Assembly (NCBI RefSeq): GCF_020096995.1 | Contig: NZ_CP083692.1 | Span: forward strand, 1,550,001 to 1,614,000 | DNA: 64,000 nt | Source of the DNA: Leucobacter sp. Psy1 | GTDB taxonomy: Bacteria; Actinomycetota; Actinomycetes; Actinomycetales; Microbacteriaceae | Direction: 5' to 3' | In this document: piece by piece, positions 43,407-48,408 of the stretch | Layout: each line of letters begins with the position of its first letter | How positions within the stretch are numbered: the first letter of the stretch is position 1 | Notes under the pieces: model-generated | Seen by the model: the letters and a program-made list of their open reading frames with translations, nothing else | What the model was told of the DNA's origin: nothing | Databases searched by the model: none | Position numbers and translations under genes: made by a program

Positions 43407-44885
43407 TCAGACCGCGAAGCCCTGCCCCTGCAGCACGAGGGCGAGCACCCTGCGGTCCTCACGATGCATGATCCCCTCGACGAAGCGGCCGAGCGCCTGA
43501 TCGAGCGTGACGGCGCCTCCGCTGCCGGCGACCTTCTGCAGGATGGCCACGAGGGTGCGCGGGGCGAGCACTGACTCCTCGAGTCCTGGGCGCCCGTCGA
43601 TTTCGCGCTCAGTGGTGACGTAGCCGTCGAAGCCCTCTCCGTGCGTTCCGGCGAAGACCTGCTGACTGATGAAGGCCGCGCGGCTCACCCGCTCGATGTC
43701 GGCTGCGGTCAGGCCGCGGGGAAGTTCACCGTGCCGGTCAACCACGGCCGCGGTGGCGAGCAGCGCATTCTCCGCGGGGAAGTCGGTGTAGTCGTTTCCC
43801 GTGTCGGGGTAGTGCACGCGGTAGGCGTTCGCGCCGAAGCGGTTGATGAGCTCCGCGCTCAGCCGATCGAGACCGCGGTACCGGTGCGGAGTCTGCTCGT
43901 TAGCGGTCGCGAGAATCGCGAACCCCGGCGCGATGGTGATCACCCGCCCCGCGTTCTCCTGGACGGCGTACCGGTCGCCGGGTCGCAACTGGAGAATGCG
44001 GTTGAGTCGCTTCAGGAACTCCGCCGGCATCGCGTTGATCTCGTCGAGGATCAGGGCGCGACCCTGCGTCATCGCGCGCAGGAGCGGGCCGGCGACGAAC
44101 GTGCTGACCGTCGCCCCGCCGTCGGATCGGAGCTCGTGCGCGCCGATGACCTGTGCACCGGTGATATCGCCGTACCCGGAGACGAACTCGCTGTCCGTGC
44201 CCGTCGCTCGCGCCGCGAGGTGCTCGGCGAGCGCCGTCTTCGCTCCTCCCGTCTCGCCGAGCAGGAGCACGGGGTCTCCTCGGCGGGTCGCCGGCAGCGC
44301 CTCCGAGATGATCCGGCGCATCTGCTCCGTGAGGAGGACGCCTCCACGCAGTTGGTGCGCCGCCTCCCTGAGCCGCATTATCGACAGGGCGTCGAGGACT
44401 TCGTCTCTGACCTGTGTGGAGACGATGCCGGGCTCCCAGCCGTCCTTCTCGGTGGGCTGATCGGCGGCGGCGCGGAGATCGGTCACGCGGTCATGCTCGG
44501 CAGCGGTCAGCGCCCTGCCGGAGGCCGCGGCCCGCGCCATCAGCTGATCCGCATTCGCGCGACGAAGCGAGCGTGCGCGCTCGGCCCGCCTCGCGTCAAC
44601 AGCGATGCGGAGCGCGGCCGCCCGGGCATCCAGCGCGGACGAGATGATCGGCCCGTGCACCGGATCGGCGAGCAGGGTCGATAGGCGAGACTCGAGGTCG
44701 GCCTGTGCTTCGCTGAGCAGTGCGAGAGTGTCGGCATCAGGATGAAGGGCGCCGACTCGCTCGGCCTCGACACCCTCGAACCCGAGGCGCTCGACTTCGG
44801 CATCGCGGGCGCGGCGCGTCAGACGGAGTTCGTGCCTGAGGCGAGCGGCTTCGTGGACCACGGGATCGGCGGCGACTGGCAGCAT
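43407..44885 (-). CDS. AAA_5/MoxR-like ATPase with helical N-terminal extension
   Basis: This 492-residue protein has ~180 N-terminal residues predicted mostly helical/coiled-coil (ARLRHELRLTRRARDAEVERL, AEAQADLESRLSTLL). An AAA+ module of the dynein/midasin/MoxR kind follows: P-loop GETGGAKT (210-217), Walker B ALILDEINAM (D281, E282), sensor 1 ILATANEQ (N329) and ELINRFGAN with the likely Arg finger. The sixth P-loop position is Ala, not Gly. Such ATPases work as chaperones with VWA partners (NorQ/NorD, CobS/CobT, RavA/ViaA). The divergently adjacent gene encodes a VWA protein. The client is unknown. Confidence 0.85.
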   Translation of the reverse strand: MLPVAADPVVHEAARLRHELRLTRRARDAEVERLGFEGVEAERVGALHPDADTLALLSEAQADLESRLSTLLADPVHGPIISSALDARAAALRIAVDARRAERARSLRRANADQLMARAAASGRALTAAEHDRVTDLRAAADQPTEKDGWEPGIVSTQVRDEVLDALSIMRLREAAHQLRGGVLLTEQMRRIISEALPATRRGDPVLLLGETGGAKTALAEHLAARATGTDSEFVSGYGDITGAQVIGAHELRSDGGATVSTFVAGPLLRAMTQGRALILDEINAMPAEFLKRLNRILQLRPGDRYAVQENAGRVITIAPGFAILATANEQTPHRYRGLDRLSAELINRFGANAYRVHYPDTGNDYTDFPAENALLATAAVVDRHGELPRGLTAADIERVSRAAFISQQVFAGTHGEGFDGYVTTEREIDGRPGLEESVLAPRTLVAILQKVAGSGGAVTLDQALGRFVEGIMHREDRRVLALVLQGQGFAV

Positions 44886-44946
44886 GACGTCACGCTATCA
44901 GCCGGCAGGGCCGGTCCCGGGCCACGGGGCACTTCGCCGGTAGGGT
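44885..44946. promoter_or_regulatory. Divergent leaderless promoter pair of the AAA and VWA genes
   Basis: On the minus strand TAGCGT (44892-44897) ends 7 nt before the AAA gene ATG. On the plus strand TAGGGT (44941-44946) ends 7 nt before the VWA ATG. Both geometries predict leaderless mRNAs. A perfect tgacgtca palindrome at 44885-44892 covers the predicted AAA transcription start and could be an operator. Confidence 0.6.
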
Positions 44947-44952
44947 GGGCGC

Positions 44953-46812
44953 ATGTGTGAGTCATCCGCTGGACGAGGTGCGTCGCTCCGCTCGCGCTTC
45001 TCGGCGGCCGGCCGGCTGCTCGGAGCGCGGATACTCATCGACGACGGCGAAGATTGGCGCGTCGAAGACGACACGATCCAGGTGGGTCTCGGCTTCTTCT
45101 CGGCGCGCGGGCACTCCGATGACGAAGCGGAGGCACTGGCTCTGCTCGAGTTGTGGGGAGCGGTGCGTGATGCCAGGATCGACCCGATACGGGTGCGGCG
45201 ACGCCGATCGCTCGCGACGCTGCATCCGGAACTCGAACCCCTCCTCGCCGCACTCGACCGCATGCAGGCGACGAGCGGGGTCCTCACGGCGCTTCCCGCC
45301 GTGCGCGCGAGTCTCGCGGCCGCGGTGCGGCGGACGGTTCCGGACGACATCCGTGCCTGGCCGCGGCACCTGCAGTGGGTCTCCTTCCTGCTGACGCTGC
45401 AGCTCGCCCCAGAACGGAGACCGCGGATCGGTGCCGAGGTGCAAGCGGCGGTGGAAGCCGCGTTCGGTTCCGCCGATGTCGCGCAGGCGGGAGAGCTCCT
45501 GCGGATGGCTGTCGCTCCGGCGACAGGACGGACGTCACTGCAGCGGCTCGAGCGCGGCCTTGCGCTGACGCTCGGCCCGTATCGGCGGTTGCTCGAGCTC
45601 GACCGGGAGGACGTCGGTCTGGCTGCCGCCGGCGGTCAGGCGGATCCGGCCGATGACGACGCGGCAGAGGCGCTTCCCCCGGATGCCGGCGCCGGCACCG
45701 GTGAAGCGGATGCGGCGGAGGAGGAACTCGAAGCCGCCGCAGATGACGAGGCTTCGGTGGCCGGGGCCAGGGATCTGTTCGCGGCTGCGCAGTCCGGCTT
45801 CCTGGACCGTGTGCTCGCCACACCGCTGCCCGCGCAGGGCCCGCTCGTCTCGGCAGTGCTGGAGGAGGCTGCGCGCGTCGAACGGGAAACGGGAGAGGCC
45901 GAGCGCGTCGCCGGCGGCGCCGGGCGCGACGCCGTCGCGTTGGCCGAGTACCGGCACCGCTCGGACGATCGGTCCGCAGCGATCGACCGCATGCGCGCGG
46001 TTTGGCAGGAGGTGATCGCCGATCGCACCGCGCCGAGACGGGCGTCCACGCGCACGCCTCACGCGGAGGGGGAGGAACTCCACGCAGACGCGCTCGCGAG
46101 CGCGCTCGCGGAAATCCACGCCGGGGCGCCGCGTCCTGAGGTGTTCAGACGCCGTATTCGACAGCCCCGTCGCGCTGAGCAGCCCGGCAGCACCGACTAC
46201 GTGCTGGCGATCGACCGGTCGGGCTCGATGTGGGGCCGGCCATCGGAGGCCGCCGCTGATGCTGCGCTCATCATGCTCGAAGGACTCGCGGGCGCCCAGC
46301 GAGACATCGCGCACGCCGAGCGCGTATCCGGCGGAACGCTCGAACTCGGCATCCGGACCGCCCTGATCGCGTTCGACGCGACCCCGGTACTCGTGAAACC
46401 GCTCGCCGGCGCGCTGACCGACGAGTCTCGTCTCGCGCTGCACAGCGAGATCCGGAGCCCAGCTGGCGGAACGAACGACGCCGCTGCGCTCGCGCTGGCT
46501 GGCCGCGAGCTCGGCGTCACGGGAGACGACGACCGCGGCGGATCCCGGCCGGGCGCTGGGGCAGACGGACTCGCGCGGCGACGCATCGTGATCCTCGTCA
46601 GCGACGGCGACTCCAACGATCCAGGTGCTGCGGACGAGCGGTTGCGCGTCCTCCGCGCGGCAGGGGTCGAGGTGTTCGGCATCGGCATCGGATCCGAGGA
46701 GCTGGTGCGGCGGTACGCACCGACGAGTATCGGCATCGGCGATCCCGAACAAATTCCCGCGGCCGTGCAGGAGCTCGTCGACCGAAGCGTGAGGCCGCTG
46801 CGGTCGACCTGA
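44953..46812 (+). CDS. VWA domain protein, partner of the AAA ATPase
   Basis: This 619-residue protein has a helical N-terminal region (~1-220), an acidic low-complexity linker (~221-270, rich in Asp/Glu/Ala), a second helical part, and a C-terminal von Willebrand factor A domain. The MIDAS is DRSGSM (D421, S423, S425), with a later GGTND (Thr) and LVSDGDSND (Asp). The design (helical region, acidic linker, C-terminal VWA) recalls CobT and NorD, which pair with AAA ATPases CobS and NorQ to insert metals or remodel enzymes. No cobalamin or denitrification gene is nearby, so the target is unknown. The start is chosen from the leaderless promoter. Confidence 0.85.
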   Translation: MCESSAGRGASLRSRFSAAGRLLGARILIDDGEDWRVEDDTIQVGLGFFSARGHSDDEAEALALLELWGAVRDARIDPIRVRRRRSLATLHPELEPLLAALDRMQATSGVLTALPAVRASLAAAVRRTVPDDIRAWPRHLQWVSFLLTLQLAPERRPRIGAEVQAAVEAAFGSADVAQAGELLRMAVAPATGRTSLQRLERGLALTLGPYRRLLELDREDVGLAAAGGQADPADDDAAEALPPDAGAGTGEADAAEEELEAAADDEASVAGARDLFAAAQSGFLDRVLATPLPAQGPLVSAVLEEAARVERETGEAERVAGGAGRDAVALAEYRHRSDDRSAAIDRMRAVWQEVIADRTAPRRASTRTPHAEGEELHADALASALAEIHAGAPRPEVFRRRIRQPRRAEQPGSTDYVLAIDRSGSMWGRPSEAAADAALIMLEGLAGAQRDIAHAERVSGGTLELGIRTALIAFDATPVLVKPLAGALTDESRLALHSEIRSPAGGTNDAAALALAGRELGVTGDDDRGGSRPGAGADGLARRRIVILVSDGDSNDPGAADERLRVLRAAGVEVFGIGIGSEELVRRYAPTSIGIGDPEQIPAAVQELVDRSVRPLRST

Positions 46813-46878
46813 GCCGATCTTGACGCGCGGCATCCGGGTCTCACCGCCGAGGTGGTGTGAGATGAGGAGGGGCGTGAG

Positions 46879-47829
46879 ATGAGCGGAGATGAGTGGCGGG
46901 GGCGAGCGGCGTGGGATGATCGGAGGATGCAGGATTGGGAGTACGACGCGGATCGGTTGCGCAGCGCCCGAGGGATGTTCCCCGATCTCGCGGCGCGCCT
47001 CGATGCAGCGCTCGCGCGATACGGTCGATCGAGCTCCGCGGGTAGCTCTCAGGAGCGCGGACCTGGGACGGGCAGTGCGGACGACCTCGACGCCTGGCTC
47101 GACGCCGGCGCTGCGCGGCTCCGGTCAGGTGAATTCGCCGCTGCGGGGTTCTCCGAGATCGTCGACTCGGACGCGCGCACGCGCGCCGAACGCGACTTCG
47201 CCGCAGCGCGCACCGTAGCGGGATGGGCGGGTATCGAGCTGCCCGAACCGGAAGCGTTCGCTGCCGCTGGAATCGATCTCGTGAGACTCGGGGAGCGGCT
47301 TGCCGCCGATCCGGATCTCGTCGCCGTGCCGGCACCATTCGGTCTCGGACGCGAAGCCTGGGATGAGCTCTTCGTCCGCGCTGCCGAGCGATTTCCGACC
47401 GTGCTCACGGGGCAGCGCGGTCTCGCGCTGTCGCAGGAGGCTGAGCGAGAGTTCACCCTGCTCGATCAGCCGGCTGCGGAAGCCGTGATCCGGGTCGGCG
47501 GGGGCGTCGACGAGCGCGGTACGCGGACGCCCTCGTGGACGCTGCGCCTCATCCCCGCGAGCCCCGCCCCTCCGCTGCTCGGACTGGGCTTCGCGCACGG
47601 GCCCCATGTGACCCTCCCTGAGATGCTCATGCTACAGCTGAGTCGGCTGGCGGACGGTGAGAGTGATCCGCTCGATTCGAACAGCTTCACCTGGCTCGCA
47701 CATCCGCTCGGGGACGGCAAGCTCGGGGCCAGGCACATTTTCGACGACGCTGAGGGCGTCGTGCGGGTGAGCACCCGCGGTGTCTTCAACCAGGGACCGC
47801 ACATGGGGGCCAGGCAACCGGTCTCCTGA
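46879..47829 (+). CDS. Uncharacterised protein downstream of the AAA-VWA pair
   Basis: 316 residues, family not recognised. An excellent gaggagg Shine-Dalgarno (46864-46870) precedes the ATG. The N-terminal half is helical and charged (DWEYDADRLRSARGMF, LAARLDAALARYG) with a Gly/Ser-rich linker near residues 50-65. The C-terminal third looks beta-rich (SWTLRLIPASPAPPLLGLGF, RHIFDDAEGVVRVSTRGVF). It has no Cys, no signal peptide and no membrane helix, so it is probably cytoplasmic. It follows the VWA gene by 66 bp on the same strand and may be the client, adaptor or effector of the AAA-VWA machine; that is inference. Confidence 0.75.
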   Translation: MSGDEWRGRAAWDDRRMQDWEYDADRLRSARGMFPDLAARLDAALARYGRSSSAGSSQERGPGTGSADDLDAWLDAGAARLRSGEFAAAGFSEIVDSDARTRAERDFAAARTVAGWAGIELPEPEAFAAAGIDLVRLGERLAADPDLVAVPAPFGLGREAWDELFVRAAERFPTVLTGQRGLALSQEAEREFTLLDQPAAEAVIRVGGGVDERGTRTPSWTLRLIPASPAPPLLGLGFAHGPHVTLPEMLMLQLSRLADGESDPLDSNSFTWLAHPLGDGKLGARHIFDDAEGVVRVSTRGVFNQGPHMGARQPVS

Positions 47830-47841
47830 GCGTGCGACCGG

Positions 47842-48408
47842 CTACTCCCAGACGCTCGGAGCTTCGGCGCGCGTCGCAGGGAGCCGCACCGCCTCGGCCC
47901 ACTCGAGGATGTCGGCCGGGACCGTGAGCAGCGCGGGGTCGGCTCCGGTCCGCTCGATCACCTCGGACATCGGCACGGTGCCGCCCGACCGGCGGAGGAT
48001 TCTGGCACGCACGACGGCGCGCGCGTAGACCTCAGGGCGACGCCGGGCGTCGGGCCGGACGAAGCGCTGCTCCATGTAGACGGCACGGTCGTCGAACCCG
48101 AGGATCCGCGACTCGATCCAGAAACGCTGCCACGGGTTCAGCGACTTCCGGTACGAGATGGTCTGGCTCACGACCACGGGATACCAGCGCTCCCGCCTGA
48201 ACACGTCGAGCACGCCGTTCCGCTGGATCAGGTCGAAACGACCGACGTCCATGATGGACAGGTACTTGCCGTTGTTCACGTGACCGAGCACGTCGAGATC
48301 GGTCGGCCACACGCGGAAGCGGGAGCGCGAGACCGCTTCGAAACCGATGCGGCGGCCTCGGGGACCGACGAAGAGCAGGTGCCACAGAGTGCGGAAGAGC
48401 ATGTGCAT
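47842..48408 (-). CDS. Hotdog-fold acyl-CoA thioesterase (4HBT/THEM6-like)
   Basis: 188 residues with the single-hotdog signature VWPTDLDVLGHVNNGKYLSI and a following VGRFDLIQR helix. YPVVVSQTISYRKSLNPWQ is also typical of THEM6-like thioesterases. These hydrolyse acyl-CoA or aryl thioesters; the substrate is unknown. Leaderless start: TAGGCT at 48415-48420 ends 7 nt before the ATG. It is convergent with the unknown gene, 12 bp from it, and divergent from efp. Confidence 0.85.
   Translation of the reverse strand: MHMLFRTLWHLLFVGPRGRRIGFEAVSRSRFRVWPTDLDVLGHVNNGKYLSIMDVGRFDLIQRNGVLDVFRRERWYPVVVSQTISYRKSLNPWQRFWIESRILGFDDRAVYMEQRFVRPDARRRPEVYARAVVRARILRRSGGTVPMSEVIERTGADPALLTVPADILEWAEAVRLPATRAEAPSVWE

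Follow-up and report, generated by a model that had tools for sequence, protein, structure and literature searches.

A MoxR/AAA-VWA gene trio with a new third component in Leucobacter: a candidate lineage-specific remodelling machine

A stretch of 64,000 nucleotides from Leucobacter sp. Psy1 (contig NZ_CP083692.1, positions 1,550,001 to 1,614,000; hereafter, the window) carries, at 43407-47829, three neighbouring genes encoding a MoxR/AAA_5-type ATPase (AAA), a VWA protein and a third protein which belongs to no known sequence family. With moderate confidence, we read this trio as a MoxR/AAA-VWA remodelling machine of three components, specific to its lineage and new in its third part. The AAA gene lies on the minus strand (43407-44885; 492 amino acids, aa), the VWA gene on the plus strand (44953-46812; 619 aa), and their divergent start codons are separated by 67 bp (44886-44952). 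The third gene (46879-47829, plus strand; 316 aa, or 300 aa with the start at 46927) is co-directional with the VWA gene and begins 66 bp past its stop. The three open reading frames were all found at these coordinates and chosen by the codon-usage gene caller, which placed the third start at 46927; the start at 46879 was kept because a GGAGG-like site is visible by eye 5' of it. Since the AAA gene is divergent from the VWA gene, the three do not form one transcription unit. The distance between the AAA and VWA starts, chosen by script, is 51-88 bp in 13 of the 24 divergent loci measured.

The AAA protein combines an N-terminal extension of about 180 residues with a single AAA module, which matches the Pfam model AAA_5 over its curated cut-off (E 9.2e-20). 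It is thus a MoxR/AAA_5-like ATPase, as the original prediction had proposed, with a P-loop at residues 210-217 (GETGGAKT), where an alanine stands at what we take to be the place of the last consensus glycine, and a Walker B motif at 281-282. Among homologues longer than 400 aa, the alanine variant is kept in 52 of 53 and the Walker B pattern in all 53. The protein also matches a PHROG family annotated as porphyrin biosynthesis (E 1.5e-20), NorQ (E 1e-9) and the whole chain of midasin (E 4e-36). This last value is misleading, since the whole-chain score sums several AAA modules, and midasin was rejected as the closest AAA relative, the profile giving 35.5 bits for NorQ against 22.0 bits for the best midasin module. 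As a separate observation, AAA is split over two frames in L057 and L130 (genome G161), L057 having a short VWA frame as well; this may be an assembly error, this genome being 89% complete.

The VWA protein is midasin/NorD-like with an intact metal ion-dependent adhesion site (MIDAS). It matches the Pfam VWA model over the curated cut-off (E 9.7e-8), and the MIDAS residues D421, S423 and S425, which had been read from the window protein, hold across its relatives: across 27 aligned VWA proteins, D421 and S425 never vary and S423 hardly does. D-x-(S/A)-x-S is found in 54/54 homologues (strict DRSxSM in 52), the MIDAS T pattern in 51/54 and the second D pattern in 52/54. In the predicted structure, a helical head (1-222) is followed by a low-confidence acidic linker (223-265), helices (266-359), a pre-VWA segment (about 360-410) and the MIDAS domain (about 411-616). 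The final element of the VWA model reaches residue 616 of 619, with no effector domain C-terminal to it.

The third protein has a helical N-terminus and an alpha/beta domain (about 143-316), and residues invariant in 27 aligned homologues include H243, E248, D266, FTW270-272, R285, D289, R296, R300, G306, H308, G310 and R312. That it falls in no recognised family, as claimed earlier, holds in every library searched: nothing in Pfam exceeds a curated cut-off (best E 0.24 for the window protein and 0.024 for the 27 homologues), the window protein has no match in NCBIfam, PADLOC or PHROGs, and the best PDB match has E 0.059. The two best matches of the structural aligner agree on a C-type lectin/FGE-sulfatase fold, and the tail (R...RxxxR...GxR) resembles by eye the end of FGE-sulfatase domains. 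Compared by profile with 25 FGE-sulfatase proteins, the third protein aligned at E 0.05 over 23 residues outside this tail (score 20.1, the best of 60 column shuffles reaching 18.2), and the tail itself did not match that of FGE-sulfatases. The C-type lectin/FGE-sulfatase identity was therefore not adopted, and a C-type-lectin-like fold stays as a weak structural hint.

The partnership of the three proteins is suggested by their co-inheritance. Among 54 Leucobacter genomes, AAA is found in 49, the third gene in 48 and both in 47; the single-gene exceptions (G179 and G190 with AAA but not the third gene, G188 the reverse) are all fragmented assemblies, and G182, G186, G192 and G194 have neither. 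In the good-quality genomes of the genus, AAA and the third gene are each present in 44 of 45, and the remaining one (G194) lacks both; VWA was examined there at the aroB-efp locus only. In the 58 loci examined (the window, L016-L021 and L081-L131), all three genes occur in 54, the others (L121, L124, L129 and L131) being cut by contig ends, and AAA and VWA stand side by side in 55, contig ends again cutting the other three. A sequence pattern of the third gene, run against a collection of 84,980 species, found 27 loci, all in Leucobacter records or Microbacteriaceae/Actinomycetota bins, with VWA in 26 and AAA in 25 and the misses cut by contig ends; the third gene is therefore not one found mostly without the pair, and the stand-alone set of three put forward in the original prediction is upheld by these counts and by the co-duplication described below. 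In a family sample of 150 genomes, the third gene was found in five, the same five having a strong AAA match; one more distant AAA match (G064) adjoins a gene which looks VWA-like by eye. In a wider family sample, AAA (E <= 1e-15) occurs in 10/329 genomes, from 2 of 85 genera. In the phylum sample, the third gene was detected in 1/396 genomes (its own, E <= 1e-5) and AAA in 2/396 (E <= 1e-20), with only five other family members named among the matches listed. Carriage by phages or plasmids was considered and rejected: nothing was confirmed for AAA or the third gene in viral contigs, for the third gene in plasmids or phages, or for VWA in plasmids, and the AAA matches in plasmids (best 20 of 132 records, several annotated NorQ-type) and phages (both records) are partial and below 33% identity.

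These distributions also bear on whether AAA and VWA are simply a known cofactor-insertion pair (CobST, NorQD, CbbQO, CoxDE or RavA-ViaA) with its client encoded elsewhere, the third gene being a local accessory. The AAA matches to the porphyrin-biosynthesis family and NorQ speak for this, as do those of VWA, in which VWA_CoxE matches 15 of 27 members (not the window protein, at E <= 0.1), CobT_C weakly matches three of 27, and the profile matches a solved CobT chain (E 5e-5); the window protein scores 12 bits (E 0.17) with the CobT family model, below the cut-off of 21. Against it, CobN is present in only one of the 54 Leucobacter genomes, itself lacking AAA and the third gene, and the RuBisCO family in three, neither being found in the genome of the window; these absences, from 53 and 51 genomes, argue against CobST and CbbQO roles, and both were rejected. 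The restriction of this kind of AAA to 2 of the 85 family genera sampled weighs in the same direction. For RavA/ViaA, no row appeared at E <= 1 in the NCBIfam and Pfam scans, whether these libraries hold such models being unchecked. For the group as a whole, we consider a known pair unlikely.

The lineage-specific machine is further suggested by a second, paralogous set (type II) in six genomes (G051, G121, G153, G165, G176 and G191). In type II, AAA and VWA are co-directional and the third gene is convergent, whereas in type I, to which the window belongs, AAA is divergent from VWA. In trees of AAA, VWA and the third protein, built from 52 loci with five type II rows, type II stands apart each time from the remaining 47 (support 100/98, 100/99 and 97, respectively), the third tree being made by a quick method and the other two by a careful one. 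The six loci outside the trees are the four cut by contig ends, L130 (frameshifted) and L126 (which failed the length or stop filter). In G051 and G121 the type I set adjoins a dnaB-type gene, and the aroB-efp junction of G051 is without the module. From the split of the trees and this relocation, it seems that the three genes were moved and duplicated together. About 6.9 kb of the type II locus L128 (4,086-10,969) has no counterpart in the 400 kb compared of G152, a genome with a single AAA match; there, the flanks of this segment are about 0.57 kb apart, and because an unrelated 192-aa frame fills the site, insertion and replacement are indistinguishable.

The type II neighbourhood has led to a concrete client hypothesis. 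In L019, L021, L125 and L126, the genes run SerC-type transaminase, B6 kinase-like, DegT aminotransferase, AAA and VWA, continuing with the convergent third gene, YggS or alanine racemase, a PtsJ-like regulator of B6 salvage and a gene that looks GabT-like by eye; identities in L021 and part of L126 were assigned by likeness, and the kinase-like and PtsJ-like calls score below the model cut-offs. Thus, the machine might be an activase or cofactor loader for pyridoxal 5'-phosphate (PLP) enzymes, which would insert PLP into B6-dependent enzymes or free blocked PLP from them, with the third protein as adaptor, type II serving the linked DegT- and SerC-type enzymes and type I unlinked ones. We hold this reading to be unlikely, and its mechanistic form, an ATP-driven activase in which the AAA ring, VWA as a lever and a novel adaptor or sensor protein would load PLP or release dead-end adducts, in the way that CbbQO acts on inhibited Rubisco, to be improbable; PLP enzymes are nonetheless possible clients. 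The lysine decarboxylase LdcI is a PLP enzyme. In favour of this reading, the DegT gene lies directly upstream of AAA in these four of the six type II loci, its stop overlapping the AAA start (TGATG), and what we take to be its catalytic-lysine motif is intact in the two proteins read (L019 and L125). Between the two genera, the DegT proteins share 72-73% identity. Moreover, all six loci have a SerC-type transaminase gene no more than about 5 kb from AAA (family model over cut-off in L019, L125 and L127, sequence likeness in L021, L126 and L128). In G165 and G153 the type II sets are accompanied by SerC- and LysA-type genes (G153 by likeness), that of G165 being also near a glutamine amidotransferase, and another SerC, 52-53% identical to the L127 copy, lies elsewhere in both genomes. 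Precedents are offered by cofactor access in ClpX and ALAS (excerpts of PMC7077987 and PMC10743472) and by RavA and LdcI (excerpts of PMC6987120). However, by eye in the gene lists, no PLP gene was recognised beside type I sets, that of the window included, the L127 and L128 stretches are without DegT, kinase and PtsJ-like regulator, and gene neighbourhood is not interaction.

Returning to the three-component remodelling machine as such, its operation can be pictured by analogy with NorQD and midasin. The AAA protein would form a hexameric ring, on which VWA would dock, possibly inserting a finger into its pore, and the MIDAS metal site would capture a partner by one of its acidic residues. 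Turnover of ATP might then twist this partner or pull on it by way of the acidic linker, and the third protein would be the dedicated partner that faces the substrate, as the client or as an adaptor presenting it. It could be an adaptor rather than the client or effector first proposed. Taking into account that AAA, VWA and the third gene are retained, duplicated and lost together, they probably form one machine. This view draws on gene content, motifs, the predicted VWA fold, co-inheritance and co-duplication. Several points weigh against it. Nearly all of the co-occurrence comes from a single genus and a single locus, at which adjacent genes are co-inherited anyway, and the low correlation of efp is a weak control given the strong conservation of this gene (median p-distance 0.08). 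For the AAA and third-protein trees, the program gave a warning of long branches meeting within type II. The pore finger is tentative, since rows of VWF A1 type likewise align from residues 342-352. Finally, an AAA-VWA pair of probable Eggerthellaceae, with no recognisable third gene within the stretch examined, indicates that the pair can exist alone.

In the window, the module is bounded by aroB (end 43373) and efp (48560). The original prediction had described it as inserted between these genes, and indeed, in one genome from each of 16 other genera, only 0.1-2.1 kb separates aroB from efp, with no module match in between. Both genes flank the set in 27 of the 58 loci, efp alone in 12 and aroB alone in four. 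A 4HBT_2-type thioesterase gene (47842-48408, minus strand) follows 3' of the third gene, and such a gene lies there on the opposite strand in 36 of the 58 loci. It is also present in G194, the Leucobacter genome without the module, in which a MocR-type regulator and other genes occupy the site (L173), the regulator, YczR-like with a score below cut-off, separating aroB from the thioesterase gene. A palindrome (TGACGTCA, 44885-44892) next to the gap between the divergent AAA and VWA genes overlaps the AAA start codon. The promoter scan gave no sites, the terminator scan one (1.0 expected), and a tRNA was the sole Rfam match. By eye, the window, part of a 3.25 Mb contig, resembles ordinary core genome.

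To our knowledge, few clients of MoxR-VWA pairs are known. Here, a single genus retains such a pair together with a small dedicated partner; two old versions exist, candidate client genes adjoin the second, and this type II neighbourhood yields PLP enzymes as a concrete new client hypothesis. In such a compact three-protein system, MIDAS capture and client remodelling are testable in vitro. The trio was not found described in the open-access literature, nor was any article pairing 'Leucobacter' with 'MoxR'; for known systems, excerpts of PMC9976466, PMC7159879, PMC10907252, PMC10769870 and PMC13036017 were drawn on.

Compared with NorQ-NorD, the AAA of the trio is extended at length on its N-terminal side, a third gene is dedicated to the pair, and no nor gene was recognised in the gene list of the window. 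Midasin (Rea1/Mdn1), in contrast, is one chain with several AAA modules. The trio resembles CobS-CobT in its AAA, CobS-like by the PHROG match, in the weak CobT matches of VWA and in a VWA layout which we take to be CobT-like; it differs in that the window VWA is below the CobT_C cut-off and CobN is absent from nearly all the genomes. The Eggerthellaceae pair, found in three of 60 genomes (G561, G627 and G638; L132, L136 and L137), is related at a distance: by profile, the G561 AAA, which also bears an N-terminal extension, shares 31% identity across 265 columns (E 1.2e-20), and the G561 VWA 20% across 471 columns (E 4e-7), the lack of a recognisable third gene being the difference. A molybdopterin oxidoreductase occurs in each of these three stretches (Pfam in L132, likeness in the others), which may be chance, Eggerthellaceae being rich in such enzymes. 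A trigger-factor-like gene adjoins AAA in L132 and, by likeness, in L137. Lastly, the trio could belong to the MoxR-vWA ternary conflict (defence) systems, with the third protein as a C-type-lectin-like ligand sensor; we regard this as unlikely. Of such systems (VMAP, iSTAND, FtsH, beta-propeller), those with VMAP follow a strict order of VMAP, MoxR and vWA, according to excerpts of PMC7159879, an order that neither the divergent AAA and VWA of type I nor the AAA, VWA and convergent third gene of type II reproduces. Moreover, no Pfam model gives a match of any weight to the third protein or its homologues, and the trio is divergent in gene order, without an effector domain and kept almost throughout one genus. 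What it shares with them is the combination of a MoxR protein, a vWA protein and a conserved third protein, together with paralogous sets within one genome.
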